Shown piece by piece: positions 9,142-16,544 of a DNA stretch of 64,000 nt. The position numbers and the translations under genes were made by a program. The stretch lies in contig NZ_JACCCC010000001.1 of assembly GCF_013408795.1 (NCBI RefSeq), positions 3,162,001-3,226,000 on the forward strand, in the 5' to 3' direction. The notes beneath the pieces were generated by a model. The model saw only the letters and a program-made list of their open reading frames with translations. It had not been told where the DNA came from and did not search any database. Source of the DNA: Spinactinospora alkalitolerans (GTDB lineage Bacteria; Actinomycetota; Actinomycetes; Streptosporangiales; Streptosporangiaceae). The stretch's first letter is position 1, and each line of letters starts with the position of its first letter.

Positions 9142-10059
9142 TCACGGCCCCGGTCGCCGGTCCCCCGGCCGTCCGCTCCCGCTCGCGCCGAGGCGTTCGG
9201 CGCGCTCCAGCCACTCCAGCGCCTTGTCGTAGTGGGCCCTGTCGATGTGCACCCCCCGGTAGCGCAGCGCCCCGGTGCCCGCTGCCGCCGCCTGCTCATA
9301 GGCCGCGACCAGGCCGCGGTAGAAGGCGACGTCGCCGTCCGAGGGGGTGAAGACGTCGTTGATGACCCCGACGTGGCCGGGGTGGATCGCGATCATCCCG
9401 CGGAAGCCGAGCCGTCGGCCGCGCCGCGCGAACTCCCCGAGGCCGTCGAGGTCGTCCAGCGCCTCCCACAGGCCGGTGAGCGCGTGGATCCCGGCTTCGC
9501 GGCAGGCGAGCAGGATCCGGCTGCGGTGGTAGAGCGTCTCGGTGCCCTCCGGGGACCACTCATAGCCCACGGCCCTGGCGATGTCGGCGTGCTCGGCCGT
9601 CGGACCGATCATGGCGCCCACCCGCGGGGAGGCGGTGGCCACCTCCAGGCAGCCGTGGATCGCCCGCACCGTCTCCACCGGGATGATGTACTCCAGACCG
9701 CTCACGCCGTTGCGCGCCTCGAAGTGGTCCAGCAGCGCGTCGTAGCGCAGGACGTCGGTGGCGCACTCGATCTTGGGCGCGAAGATCCCGGTCAGCCCCG
9801 GGACCACCACCTCCTCCAGGTCGGCGCCGGTGAGCCTGGTGCTCAGCGGGTTGACCCGGACGAAGACTCCCGCTTCGCCGCCGCCGGCGCGCACGCGCCG
9901 GACCGACTCGGCGACCATGGTCCTGGCCGCGGCCTTCTCCCCCTCGGGCACGGAGTCCTCGAGGTCGAGCACGATCGCGTCGGCGCCGGCCCGCAGCGCC
10001 TTGTCCACCCAGTTCGGACGGTGCCCCGGCAGGAAGAGCACGGAGCGGTAGGGCTGCAT
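9142..10059 (-). CDS. HpcH/HpaI (CitE-like) CoA-ester lyase
   Basis: 305 residues of the CitE-like TIM-barrel family (malyl-, citramalyl- or beta-methylmalyl-CoA lyases). Visible hallmarks are RSVLFLPG at the N-terminus, the LDLEDSVP motif (residues 31-38), FVRVN, the Mg2+-binding IPVET (Glu129) and the second acidic site around Glu156/Asp159. It would split a 3-hydroxyacyl-CoA into acetyl-CoA or propionyl-CoA and an oxoacid. The start ATG overlaps the stop of a 23-codon ORF (TGATG), which suggests coupled translation. Confidence 0.9.
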   Translation of the reverse strand: MQPYRSVLFLPGHRPNWVDKALRAGADAIVLDLEDSVPEGEKAAARTMVAESVRRVRAGGGEAGVFVRVNPLSTRLTGADLEEVVVPGLTGIFAPKIECATDVLRYDALLDHFEARNGVSGLEYIIPVETVRAIHGCLEVATASPRVGAMIGPTAEHADIARAVGYEWSPEGTETLYHRSRILLACREAGIHALTGLWEALDDLDGLGEFARRGRRLGFRGMIAIHPGHVGVINDVFTPSDGDVAFYRGLVAAYEQAAAAGTGALRYRGVHIDRAHYDKALEWLERAERLGASGSGRPGDRRPGP

Positions 10060-10130
10060 CAGCGGCTCCTCGGCAGGCCGGGCACATACTCGGCCGTGTA
10101 GTCGTGCACCGTGTCAGCGCCGAGGTCCAT
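10059..10130 (-). CDS. 23-residue ORF translationally coupled to the CitE-like gene
   Basis: An ATG preceded by a very good AGGAGGAGC Shine-Dalgarno opens a 23-codon frame (MDLGADTVHDYTAEYVPGLP...). Its TGA overlaps the ATG of the lyase gene by one base. The lyase itself has no comparable ribosome-binding site. I do not recognise the peptide. It may be a leader that loads ribosomes for the lyase, or the remnant of a larger upstream gene. Confidence 0.5.
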   Translation of the reverse strand: MDLGADTVHDYTAEYVPGLPRSR

Positions 10131-10230
10131 GCTGCTCCTCCTGCTCGGGACCGCCCCGTCCGGCGGGTCGGTCCGGGCGGCGGTGGTGCGTCCCCGCAAC
10201 CGGCGTCGAGCACCCACCTCGCACACTTTC

Positions 10231-10345
10231 CTAGTAATCATCATCATAGTATCGACGCGCCGACGGTCAACCCCTCAAACCCCCACCGGGGCCCGGCGAC
10301 GCACGACACGACTTCAGCCTTAACCATATAACTATTATCAGAGAA
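10231..10345. promoter_or_regulatory. AT-rich upstream region of the CitE/CaiB genes
   Basis: Two AT-rich patches, 10231-10252 and 10321-10342, flank a GC-rich stretch containing CCTCAAACCC. On the minus strand the second patch reads TGATAATAGTTATATGG. This shares TGATAAT and GT-x-AT with the AT-rich island in front of the thiolase gene (6469-6486). Both could carry promoter and GntR-operator elements for the minus-strand acyl-CoA genes. Confidence 0.35.
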
Positions 10346-10484
10346 AGAATGATGAGGGGCACACCACGGCCGAGAAGCCCCGATCACCCGGCCGCGCACG
10401 CCGACCGGCCACTCCCCGGAGCGCGCCGCGGCACCGGGGCGGGCCGTCGGGTATCCGCAGGCCTTTCCGGGTAGCCGGTGCGCC

Positions 10485-10867
10485 ATGGAAGCGTCGACGT
10501 CGACCTCGCTGCTCGCCGCCCTCGCCGTCACCGCCGCCCTGATCGGGCTGCACGCGGCCGGGCGATGGGTCTGCACTTCGTCCTGACCGACCGCGGGCTG
10601 GTCCGCTACCACGGCGACCGGTTCGGCCTGCGCACCCGCCTGCTGCTGGCCGCGGCCCTCCTCCTCGGCTGGCTCCTGGCGCTGGTCGCCGCGCCCACGA
10701 GCACACTCGTCGTCAGCCTGCTCACCGCGTTCCTGGGCGGCAGCATCCTGCTCAACGTCTTCAAGGAGGAGCTGCCCTCGGCCCGGCGCAGCAGCCTCGC
10801 CTGGTTCACCGTCGGCCTGGTCCTCTACGGGGTCCTGCTCGCCGTCATCACCGCGGTCGGCGAGTGA
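10485..10867 (+). pseudogene. ZIP-like membrane protein gene with internal deletion
   Basis: From the ATG at 10485 the first about 27 residues (LLAALAVTAALIGLHAAGR) look like the N-terminal membrane helix of a ZIP-like multi-spanning protein family. The frame then stops at 10586. In another frame, from about 10565, the C-terminal part of the same kind of protein continues to 10867: GLHFVLTDRGL, two membrane segments and ILLNVFKEELP. The middle (roughly 130 residues in relatives I remember) is absent and the join is out of frame. This is best explained as a deletion pseudogene. Alternatively the C-terminal part could start at ATG 10565 as a 100-residue membrane protein. Confidence 0.6.
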
Positions 10868-10904
10868 TCCCTCCGGCGGCGCCCGGGGCTGAGCGCCCGG
10901 GCGC

Positions 10905-11243
10905 TCAGCCCCGGGTGTCCTCACGCCATTCGCGGGTGAGCTCCGCCGACTCCACCGAGACCCGGATGGCGTCGTCCCCCAGGTCCTCGATGCCCTCCCA
11001 CCTCAGGTAGCGCTCGTGCCGGCGCAGCCAGTGCAGGATCGGGCGCAGGGGCGTCGGCGGCTCCAGCGACCCTCCGTAGCCGAAGCGGCCGGCCACGGCG
11101 CTGTGGCCGGCGATCAGCCCCAGGACCTCGTAGCGGCCCTCCGGTGTGTGCCGGACGACGACGTCCTGGACCTTGCCCAGGTTGTCGCCATGGTTGTCGA
11201 AGACCGGGCGACCCAGCAGGTCACTGACGCGTATCGTCGGCAT
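10905..11243 (-). CDS. PRC-barrel domain protein
   Basis: 112 residues. The first half (IRVSDLLGRPVFDNHGDNLG, VQDVVVRHTPEGRYEVLGLI) has the pattern of a PRC-barrel, a small beta-barrel found in RNA-processing factors and in membrane-associated partner proteins. The second half is basic and helical. The start lies 23 bp inside the 3' end of the upstream gene, so this is the last gene of the Nramp operon. The role is unknown; a cytosolic partner of the transporter is a reasonable guess. Confidence 0.75.
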   Translation of the reverse strand: MPTIRVSDLLGRPVFDNHGDNLGKVQDVVVRHTPEGRYEVLGLIAGHSAVAGRFGYGGSLEPPTPLRPILHWLRRHERYLRWEGIEDLGDDAIRVSVESAELTREWREDTRG

Positions 11244-11628
11244 CGTCTGCTCCGGGAAAGTGTCCGATGAACCGGCGCCGCAGCCAGTCCTCCAGCGCCC
11301 AGACCTCTTCGGGCGCGGCCGTCGACAGACGCGTCGTCGGCGCGAACTCGGTGACGTCGGCCACCGGTATCCGTACGGGCTCGGGCTCGCCCGGCCGCAG
11401 CCGCCGCAGCAGCGTCTGCCACGCCCGGCCCAGCCGCCCCGACAGCCGGGGCCCCAGGGCCGCCGAATCGGTCAGCAGCGCGCTCATGACCGGCCGGCCC
11501 CCTTCCTCCCACGACAGTTCGATGTCGTCGGCCTTTCCGGTGAGGCGACCGTCGCGGTCGGCGATCTGCCGGTCCAGAACGGTGAACCCGATCCGGAACA
11601 CCTCGGATGAGTCGTGTCGCACGGTCAC
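11221..11628 (-). CDS. small PRC-barrel-like protein coupled to the Nramp transporter
   Basis: 135 residues from a GTG that overlaps the transporter stop by 4 bp (GTGA), which decides the start. VLDRQIADRDGRLTGKADDIELSW followed by a hydrophobic strand and ALGPRL resembles a PRC-barrel-type fold. The C-terminal half holds PVRIPVADVTEFAP and a helical WALEDWLRRRF segment. There is no signal peptide or membrane helix. Two such proteins in a row behind a transporter suggest a cytosolic regulatory or scaffolding function (inference). Confidence 0.65.
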   Translation of the reverse strand: MTVRHDSSEVFRIGFTVLDRQIADRDGRLTGKADDIELSWEEGGRPVMSALLTDSAALGPRLSGRLGRAWQTLLRRLRPGEPEPVRIPVADVTEFAPTTRLSTAAPEEVWALEDWLRRRFIGHFPGADDADDTRQ

Positions 11629-12854
11629 TGCCCCGCCTTGGTGTAGATCATCAGTGGAATGGTCACGATGGAGACCACGACCAGCAGGACCAGGTAGCAG
11701 GTGCCGATGATGTTGGTGAACCTGGAGTTCACCCGGTCGCCGAGGTAGTCGCGGTCGTTGGCGACGATGAAGATCGGCAGGTAGGTCAGCGGCAGCGCCG
11801 CGGCGGAGAGCACGATGCTGTACTCGGTGACCTTGATCGGATCGAGCGTGGTCAGGATCAGGGCCAGCCCGGCCAGCAGGGTGAGCAGCACGACCGTGTG
11901 GAACCGCGTGGCATCGGCCGGTTGGAGGTGCTTGCCCCACGGCCAGCCCAGGTACTGGGCGACGCTGTAGCCGGCGGCCAGGCCCGACTCCAGGGCCGCG
12001 CCGAACGTGGCGACGAAGAAGCCCACGATGACCACGATGAGCCCGATCTTGCCCAGTGCCACCGAGACCGGCAGCGCCACCTGGCTGAGATGCTCCACCT
12101 GCACTCCGGCGGGGAAGAACAGCACCGCGGCGCAGCCCATGATGGCCAGCGCCAGCAGGCCCCCGACCGGGAAGCCGAAGAACACGTTGAACCGCGCCTG
12201 CCCCAGGTCCTTGCTGGACCAGTGCTCCTCGACGCCGCCGGAGGAGAAGAACAGCACCGTGTAGGGGGTCATGGACGCGCCGAACAGCGCGATCCCGTAG
12301 TACCACCAGGTGGACCAGTCCTCCCCCGGTGGCGGGGCCGGGCTCGCCGCGCCGTTCAGCAGCGCCCCCCAGTCCGGCCCCAGCCGCCACAGCGCGACGG
12401 CGAAAACGATCAGCGCGAGGCCGAGCAGCCCATAGGTCTGCTCCATCTTCTCGAACGGCAGCCGCCAGATCACCACCCAGACCAGGACGCCGACCACCGG
12501 CACCCACAGCAGGTAGTGGATGCTGCTCGCCAGCTCCAGCGCCAGCGCGACGCCGCCGAGCTGGGCCGCCAGCGTCAGCAGCGTGATGAAGTACGAGGCC
12601 ATGAGGTTGGCCAGCCCGGTGCGCGCGCCCAGCCGCTCCCGGACGAGGTCGAACGTCGCCCGCCCGCTGACCGCGGTGACGCGCGCCGACATCTCGGTGA
12701 ACAGCACGATCCCGATGACGCCCACGACGATCACCCAGGCCAGCGACATGCCGAACCTGGCTCCGACCAGCGCGCCGGCCACCAGGTCGCCGATGTCGAG
12801 GAACCCGCCGATCGCCGTGAGGAAGCCGAGGGTGAAGGCCAGGAGCCGCTTCAT
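11625..12854 (-). CDS. Nramp family divalent metal transporter, noncanonical
   Basis: A 409-residue integral membrane protein with about 11 hydrophobic segments and the overall Nramp (SLC11) layout. The usual TM1 DPGN motif is replaced by DIGD (residues 20-23). The TM6 metal motif MPH is replaced by MTPY (195-198). These are the metal-coordinating positions in Mn2+/Fe2+ Nramps, so ion specificity may differ, for example Mg2+ or another cation as in Nramp-related transporters. It overlaps the upstream lipoprotein and downstream PRC-like genes by 4 bp each (ATGA, GTGA), which makes a coupled operon. Confidence 0.85.
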   Translation of the reverse strand: MKRLLAFTLGFLTAIGGFLDIGDLVAGALVGARFGMSLAWVIVVGVIGIVLFTEMSARVTAVSGRATFDLVRERLGARTGLANLMASYFITLLTLAAQLGGVALALELASSIHYLLWVPVVGVLVWVVIWRLPFEKMEQTYGLLGLALIVFAVALWRLGPDWGALLNGAASPAPPPGEDWSTWWYYGIALFGASMTPYTVLFFSSGGVEEHWSSKDLGQARFNVFFGFPVGGLLALAIMGCAAVLFFPAGVQVEHLSQVALPVSVALGKIGLIVVIVGFFVATFGAALESGLAAGYSVAQYLGWPWGKHLQPADATRFHTVVLLTLLAGLALILTTLDPIKVTEYSIVLSAAALPLTYLPIFIVANDRDYLGDRVNSRFTNIIGTCYLVLLVVVSIVTIPLMIYTKAGQ

Positions 12855-13327
12855 CGAGTGCTCTCCTCGATCTTCTCCAGACTCCCCGCAGTCGCGCCGA
12901 GGTCCCGTTCGGCCGCGCGGACCCCGGCGATGTCGTCGCGGCGCACGGCGATCCGCAGGTCGGCGAGGCCCTCCGTCGCCCTGTCGGCCAGGGCCATCAG
13001 CCGCGCGCGCAGCGGGTCCAGGTCCCGTGAGGGCGGCTGCCGCGTCGCGAACGACTCACGGACCGACAGGGCGACGTTCTCCACATCGCTGACGGTGACC
13101 TCGGCGTAGGGGTCCAGCGACCGCTCCCCTTCGATGGTCTGGGCCACGAGGACGCCCGTGCGCACCGAGGAGAGGAGGGACCCCGCGCTCAGATTGGCGC
13201 TTTCGAGGTAGCCCTCCTCGGTCAGGATCGGGCCTGGCATGCACCCCGCGACCGCCGCGATCAGCAGCAGGACGGCCGCGAGCCGCGCGCCGGGTGCCGC
13301 TCGTCCGCGGCTGCGCGCCCCCGTCAC
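12851..13327 (-). CDS. lipoprotein of unknown function in the Nramp operon
   Basis: 158 residues with a type II signal peptide: basic N-terminus, LLLIAAVAGC with lipobox cysteine at residue 29. The mature part is predicted to be almost entirely helical and charged, and looks like a coiled-coil or four-helix bundle. No known domain is recognised. Its stop overlaps the Nramp start by 4 bp, so the two are co-translated. It would sit on the outer face of the membrane beside the transporter. Confidence 0.7.
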   Translation of the reverse strand: MTGARSRGRAAPGARLAAVLLLIAAVAGCMPGPILTEEGYLESANLSAGSLLSSVRTGVLVAQTIEGERSLDPYAEVTVSDVENVALSVRESFATRQPPSRDLDPLRARLMALADRATEGLADLRIAVRRDDIAGVRAAERDLGATAGSLEKIEESTR

Positions 13328-13394
13328 GGCAGGGCCACTGCGGCCCGGGCGACGCCGGAGCGTCCGCGCGGAGCCGCCGTGGCCGGGGCCGGCA

Positions 13395-13961
13395 TCAGGT
13401 GTGGCGTCCGGTGAGGGCGTCGCGCATGCGGTCGATCATGCCGGCGCCGGGGTCGAGGATGCGGTTGGCCGGCGGGGTGTCGGGGGCGCTGGGGTGCGGG
13501 CGGGTGGGGGCGCTCTTCTTGGCCTGGAGCACCTTCTGGCCCAGCTCGGCCAGCTCCTGCTGGGAGCAGGCCTCGCGCAGCCGGGGCAGCAGGTCGTTCT
13601 CCTCGTCGGAGACGTGGTGGCGGATGTCGCGGATCAGGGTGGCCAGCAGCTCCTCGAAGCGGGCGTCGCCGGGGTCCAGGCCTTCGAGGTCCTTCATCAC
13701 GCGCTCGGCCTCGGCGTGCTCCTGGACCTCGTGGTCGGCGATGCGGTCGCCGTCGGCCAGGGCCTTGCGGGCGGCGGGGTACATGTACTGCTCTTCGGCC
13801 ACGGAGTGGCGCACCAGTTCGGTGATGACGTGGTCGGTGAGCTCCTTGCGGCGCTCGGGCGCCAGGTCGCCCTGCTCCAGTTCGGTGAAGACGCGTTCGA
13901 CGTCGCGGTGGTCGGAGACGATCACGCCGATCAGGTCGGGGCTCTGCTCGGTCTGGGACAC
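13395..13961 (-). CDS. hemerythrin HHE domain protein
   Basis: 188 residues with a clear hemerythrin-like four-helix bundle. Candidate diiron ligands are His18 (SDHRDVE), His52 and Glu56 (RHSVAEEQYMYP), His77/His82, and His115/His116 with Glu120/121 (RHHVSDEENDLLP). A proline-rich tail follows. Such proteins bind O2, NO or iron. It lies 67 bp upstream of the lipoprotein-Nramp-PRC genes on the same strand and may be in one transcript with them. Confidence 0.9.
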   Translation of the reverse strand: MSQTEQSPDLIGVIVSDHRDVERVFTELEQGDLAPERRKELTDHVITELVRHSVAEEQYMYPAARKALADGDRIADHEVQEHAEAERVMKDLEGLDPGDARFEELLATLIRDIRHHVSDEENDLLPRLREACSQQELAELGQKVLQAKKSAPTRPHPSAPDTPPANRILDPGAGMIDRMRDALTGRHT

Positions 13962-14251
13962 GGGTCCTCCTTCGGATGCGGCCGGTGCGCCACAGGGGCG
14001 CCTGCGTTGACGGACTCAACTGCCCAACAACCACCGGAACGAACATCCGCACCGGGAAGAAATCCCACCGTTCCCCCGGCCCACCGGTCGATTCCTCCGC
14101 ACTCCTGCTCCGCGATGATGGGATGCCCGGGTCGTCCGCCTCGGGAGGGTTCCGGCGCCGCTCCTCGCCGCGGGGGCTCGGGCATCCGTGCGCCGAAGCG
14201 GGGAACGCCGAAGCCGGAGAGCAGGGAAGCAGGGGAGAAGGAAGGTCGCGC

Positions 14252-14800
14252 ATGCCATCGGATCCGGAGCGCTTCATCGTCGTGACCGGAGGACCGGGAT
14301 CGGGGAAGAGCACCCTGATCGACCGGCTGCAGGAGGCGGGCTTCGCGCGCTCGGACGAAGCCGGCCGGGGCGTCATCCGGGACCAGGCCGCGATCGGCGG
14401 GCGCGCGCTGCCCTGGGTCGATCCGGACCTGTTCGCCGAGATGATGCTCTCCTGGGAGCTGCGCTCGCACCGGCTGGCCGCGGCGCGGACCGGTCCCGTC
14501 TTCTTCGACCGCGGGGTCCCCGACGTCGTGGGCTACCTGCGGCTGGAGGGCCGCCCCGTCCCGGCCCACGTGCACGCCGCGGCACGGGCGTTCCGCTACC
14601 ACCGCCGCGTGTTCGTCGCGCCCCCGTGGCCGGAGATCTACCGGCGGGACACCGAGCGCAGGCAGTCCCTCGACGAGGCCGAGCGGACCTACGAGGCCAT
14701 GGTCGCGACCTATCCGGAGTACGGCTATGAACCGGTGCCGCTCCCCCGCGCATCCGTTGAGGAGCGGCTCCGGTTCGTCGTCGACGCGATCGGCCGCTAG
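14252..14800 (+). CDS. AAA-type P-loop NTPase/kinase-like protein
   Basis: 182 residues starting at an ATG with AAGGAAGG upstream. The Walker A motif GGPGSGKST is at residues 13-21. FDRGVPD (about residues 87-93) fits a Walker B/DRG-type motif of small nucleotide-kinase-like ATPases. The C-terminal half (YRRDTERRQSLDEAERTYEAM) resembles a lid and Arg-rich segment. It stands alone between the hemerythrin gene and the convergent lectin gene. The substrate is unknown. Confidence 0.8.
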   Translation: MPSDPERFIVVTGGPGSGKSTLIDRLQEAGFARSDEAGRGVIRDQAAIGGRALPWVDPDLFAEMMLSWELRSHRLAAARTGPVFFDRGVPDVVGYLRLEGRPVPAHVHAAARAFRYHRRVFVAPPWPEIYRRDTERRQSLDEAERTYEAMVATYPEYGYEPVPLPRASVEERLRFVVDAIGR

Positions 14801-14814
14801 ATCGCTGACGGGAG

Positions 14815-14840
14815 TCGGGAGGCTGCGGCCGCAGCCTCCC
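14815..14840. terminator. bidirectional terminator between convergent genes
   Basis: A perfect 26-bp palindrome lies 15 bp after the ATPase stop and 60 bp from the 3' end of the convergent lectin/beta-helix gene. Confidence 0.8.
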
Positions 14841-14900
14841 GCTCACCGCGGCAGGGCCCGAAAACAACGCCGACCCTCTCCCATCACCGATCTAAACGAT

Positions 14901-16544
14901 CTAGCAGACGTCGAGACTGCTGTTGACCCGGGTGATGTTGCGGAAGACGGTGTTGTTCCCGCACGGGTTCTCGGTGACGGCGGAATCGGTCACCGTCAGG
15001 TTCTGCACGGTGATGTCGGAGTTGTTGGCGAACTCCGACCGCGCGGCGAGCCGGATGTCACCGGGGCCCGCCACACTGCCCGACTCGGCGGCGAGGGTCA
15101 CGTTGTGGCAGTTCTCGATCAGGATGGCGTTGCTGCCGGTCTGGGCGATGTCCAGCCGGTCGATGACGGCGCCGCCGCTCTCGGAGACGCAGAAGACGCC
15201 GCGGCCGCCGCCCCGCGCACGCACCTCGCCGACGCGGATGTTCGCGGGGTAGCCGCCGCCCACGCGGCCGTTGCGGTTGGCCATGCGAAACGCCGCGTAG
15301 CCGGTGCCCGTACCGGTCCCCACCCCGTCGACCAGACCCACCTCGGCGTTGATCGTGTCGTTGAGGAGCAGCCCGGAGTAGGCCGTGTCGCGGGCCACCA
15401 CCGTGCCGACCGTAAGGCCGTCGACGCCGTAGGTCTCGACGCCGTGGTTGCCCGTTCCTTCGACGTAGACGTGGTCGATCCGGACATCGCGCGTGTGCAC
15501 GCTGCGGTCGCCGTGGTTGTCGATGCGCACCCCGAGACCGCCGGACAGGCGCAGGTCGATCTGGCCGAGGTGGACGTCGGTGGCGTTGCGGACGAAGATC
15601 CCGAAGTACGGGGCCCCGGTGACGCTCAGGTGCGAGACCTCGATGTCGCTGACGTTGCGGGCGCGGACGACGGCGTTGTCCCCGGAGGGCGATCCGGTCA
15701 CGTCGACGGTGCCGCAGACCTCCAGGGCGGTGTGGCTCGGCAGGTCCAGCGAGGAGCCGGCGCTCATCGTGCCCGAACCGCGGACGACGACCCGCTCCTT
15801 CGAACCGCGCCCCGGGGTGAGGCTGTCCACGGCCGCGCGCATCGCCTGGAGCATGTCGTCGCCGGTGTAGACGGTGCTGCCGCCGTTGCGCGCGGTCCAC
15901 GTACCGCCGTTCTGCACCACCTCGGCGCTGAAGGAACCGGTGCCGCAGGTGCCGTCGCCGCCGTCATCGCCGCCGTCTGCGACCTTGACCGGCTGCCAGC
16001 GCTGGTTGGCGCCGTCGAGGTCGGTGAACTGGGAGATCCGGCCGCCGTCCGCGGTGGACCATTCCCAGACCTCCAGGGCCTTTCCGCTGTTGCGGTTGAT
16101 CAACCGGACGTCTCCGTTCGAGGAGTCCTCGACCCGGAACTGCTGGTTGGTGCCGCCGTTGTCGGTGTACTGCCGGATTTCGGCGCCGTCCTCGGTGGAA
16201 CGCTCCCAGACGTCCACCGCCTTTCCGCTGTTGCGGTTGATCAGCGCGTAGTATCCGCCGCCGGCGTCCACGAAACGGAATTGCTGGTTGACGGCGCCGG
16301 TGTTGGTGTATTGGCGAATTTCGGCGCCGTTCTCGGTGGAGTGCTCCCAGACGTCCACCGCCTTTCCGCTGTGCCGGTTCACCAGCACGTAGTAGGCGTC
16401 GGTGTCGATGTCGGCCGCCTCGGCGGTGCGCGCGCCGGTGACGAGGAAGGCCGCGATGAGCGCGGCGGTGGAGACGAGCACGAGGAGGGCCCGCCGGAGC
16501 GGTGCCGGTCGGCGTGCCGAGAGCGTGGGCGGGTTCATGTCCAT
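14901..16544 (-). CDS. secreted protein: ricin-type lectin domain plus right-handed beta-helix
   Basis: 547 residues. A Sec signal peptide ends near residue 43 (TAEA/ADID). Residues about 48-190 contain three copies of a ricin-B-like repeat (NRxSGKAVDVWExSTENGAEI, QQF/QRW), a carbohydrate-binding module. A short Gly/Asp linker follows. Residues about 205-547 form repeated short beta-strands typical of a right-handed parallel beta-helix (pectate-lyase/rhamnogalacturonase superfold). This combination suggests a secreted polysaccharide-binding lyase or hydrolase. I cannot identify catalytic residues or the substrate. The upstream region holds a CRE-like operator. Confidence 0.85.
   Translation of the reverse strand: MDMNPPTLSARRPAPLRRALLVLVSTAALIAAFLVTGARTAEAADIDTDAYYVLVNRHSGKAVDVWEHSTENGAEIRQYTNTGAVNQQFRFVDAGGGYYALINRNSGKAVDVWERSTEDGAEIRQYTDNGGTNQQFRVEDSSNGDVRLINRNSGKALEVWEWSTADGGRISQFTDLDGANQRWQPVKVADGGDDGGDGTCGTGSFSAEVVQNGGTWTARNGGSTVYTGDDMLQAMRAAVDSLTPGRGSKERVVVRGSGTMSAGSSLDLPSHTALEVCGTVDVTGSPSGDNAVVRARNVSDIEVSHLSVTGAPYFGIFVRNATDVHLGQIDLRLSGGLGVRIDNHGDRSVHTRDVRIDHVYVEGTGNHGVETYGVDGLTVGTVVARDTAYSGLLLNDTINAEVGLVDGVGTGTGTGYAAFRMANRNGRVGGGYPANIRVGEVRARGGGRGVFCVSESGGAVIDRLDIAQTGSNAILIENCHNVTLAAESGSVAGPGDIRLAARSEFANNSDITVQNLTVTDSAVTENPCGNNTVFRNITRVNSSLDVC

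Follow-up and report, generated by a model that had tools for sequence, protein, structure and literature searches.

Why do a hemerythrin, a lipoprotein, an Nramp-type transporter and two PRC-barrel-like proteins stand together on one strand of the Spinactinospora alkalitolerans genome, and which of them, if any, work together? The first-pass annotation had described five same-strand genes with overlaps of 4, 4 and 23 bp, and ORFs with these overlaps are indeed present on the minus strand at 10905-13961 of the window, by which we mean the whole stretch of 64,000 nucleotides that was analysed. The features of the locus are as follows.

13395..13961, minus strand: hemerythrin (HHE), Pfam Hemerythrin 7.5e-18; judged to be a neighbour outside the unit
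12851..13327, minus strand: lipoprotein ORF, signal peptide and lipobox (AGC, Cys29) followed by a predicted four-helix bundle; first gene of the unit
11625..12854, minus strand: Nramp-family transporter (PF01566) of the NRMT-sister clade, Pfam Nramp 1.6e-48
12786..12797, minus strand: TM1 ion-site codons D20-I-G-D23 (DxxD), from the alignment of the clade
12258..12278, minus strand: TM6 ion-site codons A193-S-M-T196-P-Y-T199, from the alignment of the clade
11221..11628, minus strand: PRC1, of the PRC-II type (LDRQ motif), by hhalign; its GTG start overlaps the Nramp stop
10905..11243, minus strand: PRC2, of the PRC-I type, Pfam PRC 3.3e-7 and hhalign

The lipoprotein and Nramp genes share 4 bp (12851-12854), as do Nramp and PRC1 (11625-11628), and PRC1 and PRC2 share 23 bp (11221-11243). 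The longer overlap is plausible, since a ribosome-binding-like GGAG is located just 5' to the PRC2 ATG. A gap of 67 bp separates the end of the hemerythrin gene from the start of the lipoprotein gene. The lipoprotein and PRC1 of this genome matched no Pfam family, and promoter and terminator scans at the locus were uninformative.

Genome contigs, one genome per Nramp-carrying species, were scanned with exact 8-residue patterns. This gave 63 loci, 61 of which were used, and the domains neighbouring Nramp were scored with iterated HMMs. All 63 loci belong to Actinomycetota, a result of exact-pattern matching that does not imply absence from other phyla. Two PRC domains were found 3' to Nramp in every one of the 59 scorable loci, encoded by two genes in 31 and fused in 28; a locus at a contig edge (L019) and an interrupted one (L067) were left out of this scoring. 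The lipoprotein was found 5' to Nramp in 59 of the 61 loci, and in 54 the two genes share exactly 4 bp as they do here (counted from match starts, with a correction for four loci whose match starts inside the protein); this overlap persists even where the lipoprotein has diverged to about 20% identity. The two loci lacking a lipoprotein match are L051 and L057, the latter of which begins at a contig end. In a check fixed beforehand, the lipoprotein-Nramp-PRC-PRC order was found to hold outside close relatives: about 60 loci keep it, spread over many orders and more than one class. The idea that the overlapping genes belong together is thus supported for all four of them.

A second set of 296 Actinomycetota genomes, sampled independently, contained 13 with an Nramp of this clade (match E <= 1e-60), seven of them listed outside the class of the window. 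All 13 had a lipoprotein or PRC neighbour beside the carrier (PRC in 11, lipoprotein in 12). The PRC domains were not seen in G138 and G206 (a broken gene; a contig end), and in G204 the lipoprotein was not recognised beside Nramp. When the lipoprotein profile was run against the same 296 genomes, its 11 best matches (E 1.3e-8 or better) all adjoined an Nramp of the clade; weaker matches (5e-8 and above) were scattered and were treated as chance. No gene flanking the unit recurs beyond close relatives, so its borders are sharp. Taken together, these searches describe a patchy, self-contained and sharply bounded block, and lipoprotein-Nramp-PRC1-PRC2 is very likely a real, conserved unit.

The carrier scores 166 bits against PF01566 (cut-off 29.8), and its best solved relative is EleNRMT (7qia, 6e-26). 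The earlier assignment to the Nramp family thus stands; what is added here is a placement, derived from a tree of 71 proteins, in a clade sister to the Mg2+ transporters called NRMT and not with the transition-metal carrier MntH. The carriers of the unit are monophyletic (support 100/100) on a long stem (1.65), and the NRMTs form a clade of their own (99/97). The two clades join at a fork supported by 92/87, with the unit's carriers outside the NRMT clade and MntH separate. The genome of the window itself encodes no NRMT detectable at 1e-40.

The ion site was examined with published motif rules, by which the NRMT site is DxxG-TxxA/T (PMC8806188). A single alignment recovered the published motifs (PMC8806188), DPGN/ATIMPH for E. 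coli MntH and DxxG/TTIAPW for the NRMTs, which validates its columns. In the same columns the carrier clade reads D(I/V)GD / [AGS]AMTPY, giving the signature DxxD–[AGS]xxT. In TM1, D20 is present in 61/61 carriers and D23 in 60/61, the remaining one having Glu. In TM6, position 193 is A, G or S throughout (61/61), T196 is found in 60/61 and Tyr198 is invariant. Glu predominates at TM6 position 199 (52/61), where this genome has Thr, and the Glu98 of the clade is Gln (Q98) in this genome. Glu344 in TM10 is kept in 60/61, and where other groups have a Gln in TM10 the carrier clade has a hydrophobic residue. One divergent relative (L183, G036) reads DMGS.

The carrier has DIGD and ASMT in place of the canonical SLC11/MntH DPxN-AxxM, and it reads MTPY where MntH has MPH, so the His after the TM6 motif is absent. 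Of the NRMT site, the first Asp and the fourth-position Thr fit and the Gly and the third-position Thr do not; the NRAT (Al3+) site, DxxN-AxxT, differs by the DxxD of the carrier. Motif and tree both argue against function as a Mn/Fe MntH. We infer a hard-ligand site, whose sequence does not single out one ion. Inheritance of the NRMT substrate is uncertain, since two of the four site positions differ (Asp for Gly, Ala/Gly/Ser for Thr) and the TM10 Gln that EleNRMT requires is absent.

That the two barrel proteins are PRC domains, as the first-pass annotation proposed, is borne out for PRC2 by Pfam and for PRC1 by profile-profile comparison (hhalign, 97% against PRC profiles), together with a structure predicted for a fused homologue (pLDDT 81), which matches PRC structures. 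Similar domains are encoded beside NRMTs. These transporters were found in 81 of the 296 Actinomycetota genomes, and 28 of the best 30 had next door a match to the profile of a PRC-PRC-MgtE_N-CBS partner, although several flanks were cut, with only the C-terminal part of the partner seen in some loci and a short fragment in one (L130). Typical partners have this domain make-up, which Pfam supported in one protein (PRC twice, with MgtE_N at 7e-5, just under the cut-off); the CBS part was recognised by reading of the sequences. In six NRMT loci (L146, L149, L152, L154, L155 and L156) a separate ORF for a PRC pair is located 3' to NRMT, as in the unit.

PRC1 aligns with the second PRC domain of the NRMT partners, PRC-II (hhalign E 3.3e-11), and PRC2 with the first, PRC-I (2e-13), and both profile matches are better than those of the crossed pairs. 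A partner pair of the NRMT type is therefore found next to the carrier. An LDRQ motif separates the two types within the unit (54/60 PRC1, 0/60 PRC2); a looser form occurs in 18/18 PRC-II and in no PRC-I, although a related motif had served to delimit PRC-II in the first place. Judged by these profile matches, the PRC pair of the unit is homologous to the PRC-I/PRC-II pair. Because PRC1 pairs with PRC-II and PRC2 with PRC-I, the order of the two is swapped relative to the NRMT partners; this holds in most loci, and profile hits in one (G061, L077) suggest the NRMT order. No MgtE_N match was found in the PRC proteins of the unit, which lack the Mg2+-sensing MgtE_N/CBS part. An M-box Mg2+ riboswitch is located 5' to one NRMT partner gene (L135). 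At the unit, an Rfam scan of window positions 10000-15000 and 10 clade loci gave no match above the gathering score, M-box included, and riboswitch control was set aside on this result.

The lipoprotein, noted earlier as helical, is predicted by AF2 to be a four-helix bundle (pLDDT 91; helices 37-66, 72-94, 101-129 and 133-157). It has a signal peptide and a lipobox, VAGC, with Cys29, which is the only invariant column among 30 aligned lipoproteins, a set biased by having been selected partly by the lipobox rule. Micromonosporaceae homologues (Dactylosporangium, Planosporangium) keep a hydrophobic N-terminal anchor and lack the Cys. None of the 30 members matches a Pfam family. No His, Asp or Glu is conserved among the 30 sequences, and a role as a metal store was rejected as unlikely because no polar ligand set is conserved. 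The best Foldseek hit of the fold, PcaY_PP (E 0.0097), and the VIA matches at Z 11-14 (designed bundles, sensor domains, PsbQ) lie within helical-bundle noise. The protein may act on the outside of the membrane as a subunit with a structural, gating or sensing role.

We consider that the unit is probably (at about 0.6) an NRMT-like carrier of a hard divalent cation with a PRC regulatory pair and an outer four-helix subunit. The stretch 10905-13327, with its four genes, would then specify one multi-part membrane transporter, with the Nramp protein as the carrier. Because this protein branches beside the Mg2+ carriers, lacks the Met that selects metals and the His that handles protons in Mn/Fe Nramps, and has a rebuilt, oxygen-rich site (DxxD in TM1, Thr in TM6), it most likely imports a hard divalent cation, with Mg2+ as the first candidate and Mn2+ as the second. 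Both PRC domains together may form a cytosolic regulatory subunit of the carrier, by likeness to the presumed role of the homologous PRC-I/PRC-II pair that fronts MgtE_N-CBS proteins beside NRMTs. The lipoprotein would place its bundle on the outer membrane face beside the carrier, either as a receptor or as a subunit with a stabilising or gating role. Mg2+ is the most likely single guess for the substrate, well short of certain; the missing M-box, in the window and at 10 clade loci, and the missing MgtE_N/CBS part speak against the NRMT-like reading, as do the 92/87 support and long stem at the fork with NRMT and the generic fold matches of the lipoprotein. A bolder version, which we put forward tentatively and at less than even odds, is that the unit represents an obligate multi-subunit branch of SLC11/Nramp with a PRC-pair regulator, a lipid-anchored extracytoplasmic four-helix subunit and an ion site of a third type (DxxD-AxxT) that defines a new selectivity.

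The strongest alternative retains the PRC pair and the lipoprotein as subunits and proposes that the carrier has shifted from Mg2+ to a different substrate (Mn2+, Ca2+ or a trivalent ion), for which it would use the additional Asp together with acidic residues specific to the clade in TM6 and TM10. Replacement of DxxG/DPxN by DxxD, the frequent Glu at 199, the nearly invariant Glu344 and the long stem of the clade would suit such a shift, and a fourth-position Thr is likewise present in NRAT, a carrier of Al3+ (PMC8806188, PMC10115441). In addition, Shin et al. 2014 (PMC4072509) found that the A. capsulatum NRMT-group protein NrmT, which has an MgtE-like neighbour, behaves as a Mn2+ transporter. 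However, the nearest relatives of the carrier are Mg2+ carriers that have PRC partners in common with it, and two of the acidic residues are lost in the protein of this genome (Q98, T199). We regard such a shift as rather unlikely, and prefer the NRMT-like carrier of a hard divalent cation.

The hemerythrin had been counted as a member of the module, and its position invites a reading in which the five genes make up a single system linked to iron or redox, with hemerythrin as a diiron sensor or store and Nramp importing Fe2+ or Mn2+. It lies 67 bp upstream on the same strand, and it directly adjoins the unit only rarely: among the 61 contig loci in N. trehalosi alone (L018), and in the window's own family, where 61 genomes include 9 with the clade Nramp and 17 with this hemerythrin, in 2 of the 9 (G000 and G350). 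It does occur within the fetched flanks (about 6 kb) at 6/61 loci against about 0.55 expected, an excess whose P value of 2e-5 is indicative only, being based on hemerythrin density in one family and on loci treated as independent. At 55/61 loci, however, it is missing, and where present it is mostly kilobases away or on the opposite strand. Moreover, the gene and its leader are duplicated 0.76 Mb away in an unrelated setting (653 bp, 99.5% identical, 3 mismatches), and the Nramp lacks the Met of a transition-metal site. We therefore removed the hemerythrin from the unit, and an iron- or redox-linked system appears very improbable. Least credible is that the genes are merely co-transcribed in a stress or housekeeping operon, with the PRC proteins serving the ribosome or division and the lipoprotein the envelope: PRC domains do have other uses, in RimM, CdpB and reaction-centre H subunits, but strong matches to this lipoprotein family in the 296 genomes were found only beside the clade Nramp, the two PRC domains belong to the types that also accompany NRMTs, and the genes occur patchily, as a single block with no further conserved neighbour.

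Proteins of the Nramp family are generally regarded as carriers that act alone. If the unit is a complex, the family would gain dedicated inner and outer subunits, the role of the PRC domains encoded next to Mg2+ carriers of bacteria, so far unstudied, would be explained, and a natural DxxD site would be at hand for testing how the Nramp fold chooses among Mg2+, Mn2+ and Ca2+. A literature search, mostly without subscription papers, found no paper pairing Nramp with a PRC-barrel and none joining a PRC-barrel domain, MgtE and a transporter, in keeping with the earlier statement that no described function is known for this gene combination; as a multi-part metal-ion transporter, the unit is apparently undescribed. 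Shin et al. 2014 (PMC4072509), in the parts available, report MgtE-N-like genes beside NrmT genes and propose feedback control, and no mention of PRC domains was found in those parts.

Among known systems, the archaeal PRC proteins CdpB1/CdpB2 (8qzo, 8onw) have paired PRC-barrel folds and were the top Foldseek matches to the fused homologue, but identity is about 10% and they have no transport link. MntH and other canonical Nramp (SLC11) proteins share the Pfam family and the TM1 Asp with the carrier, which lacks DPxN-AxxM and MPH and falls in its separate 100/100 clade. The closest likeness is to NRMT/NrmT (EleNRMT 7qia; C. acetobutylicum Ca_c0685), with which the unit shares PF01566, the sister position, an ion site without Met, the lack of the TM6b His, the TM3 Glu in most members and a PRC-I/PRC-II partner encoded next door. 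It differs in having DxxD-[AGS]xxT rather than DxxG-TxxA/T, no TM10 Gln, a partner without MgtE_N and CBS whose PRC order is swapped in most loci, a dedicated lipoprotein, and no M-box found. The MgtE-N-like NrmT partners (PRC-PRC-MgtE_N-CBS proteins) likewise have both PRC types directly beside the carrier, whereas the unit keeps only the PRC pair, 3' to its carrier.

The hemerythrin gene that neighbours the unit was found, with its leader, at two places in the genome:

Window 13395-14047: hemerythrin gene and leader, copy beside the unit
L004 1388-2040 (G000:C1, about 3931670-3932322): hemerythrin gene and leader, distant copy

These segments are 99.5% identical, and the hemerythrin stop codon is the exact end of the copied block. 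Since a hemerythrin likewise adjoins the unit in N. trehalosi, it is probably the distant copy that is derived. In 6 of 61 loci (L018, L026, L032, L038, L048 and L055) a hemerythrin was observed no more than about 6 kb from the unit, against roughly 0.55 expected; these hemerythrins occur on either strand and mostly outside the unit's operon.

Beyond PRC2 lies one further reading frame:

Window 10478-10867, plus strand: small membrane-protein-like ORF, convergent with PRC2

It had no relatives among 30 family genomes and is perhaps a gene remnant.

Micromonosporaceae versions of the lipoprotein (L044, L054, L067) lack the lipobox Cys but keep a hydrophobic N-terminal anchor. Other Nramp-family and PRC variants were located as follows:

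L006 1459-2706 and 2778-3944, both minus strand: genes of an Nramp-outgroup locus in the window's genome
L082 (G138:C152 9052-9756): Nramp of the unit's clade, without its middle
L077 2529-3452 (G061): fused PRC pair

The L006 Nramp-outgroup protein has FGPGN in place of a metal motif and is probably a non-metal carrier; by visual inspection, its neighbours are a LacI-like regulator and a gene resembling dihydrodipicolinate synthase. The L082 gap, profile positions 152-321, means that the gene is broken or that the assembly is faulty there. In the fused pair of L077 the profile matches follow the order of the Nramp-related Mg2+ transporter (NRMT) partners, PRC-I type first, making it a possible intermediate.

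Two riboswitch matches were seen at NRMT loci:

L135 4072-4215, minus strand: M-box Mg2+ riboswitch of an actinobacterium, directly 5' of a PRC-PRC-MgtE_N-CBS and NRMT operon
L134 2923-2988, plus strand: Cyclic di-GMP-II riboswitch match, just 3' of an NRMT gene

At L146, L149, L152, L154, L155 and L156, the PRC pair forms an ORF of its own, about 190-210 residues long, 3' of the NRMT gene, an arrangement that mirrors that of the window's unit.
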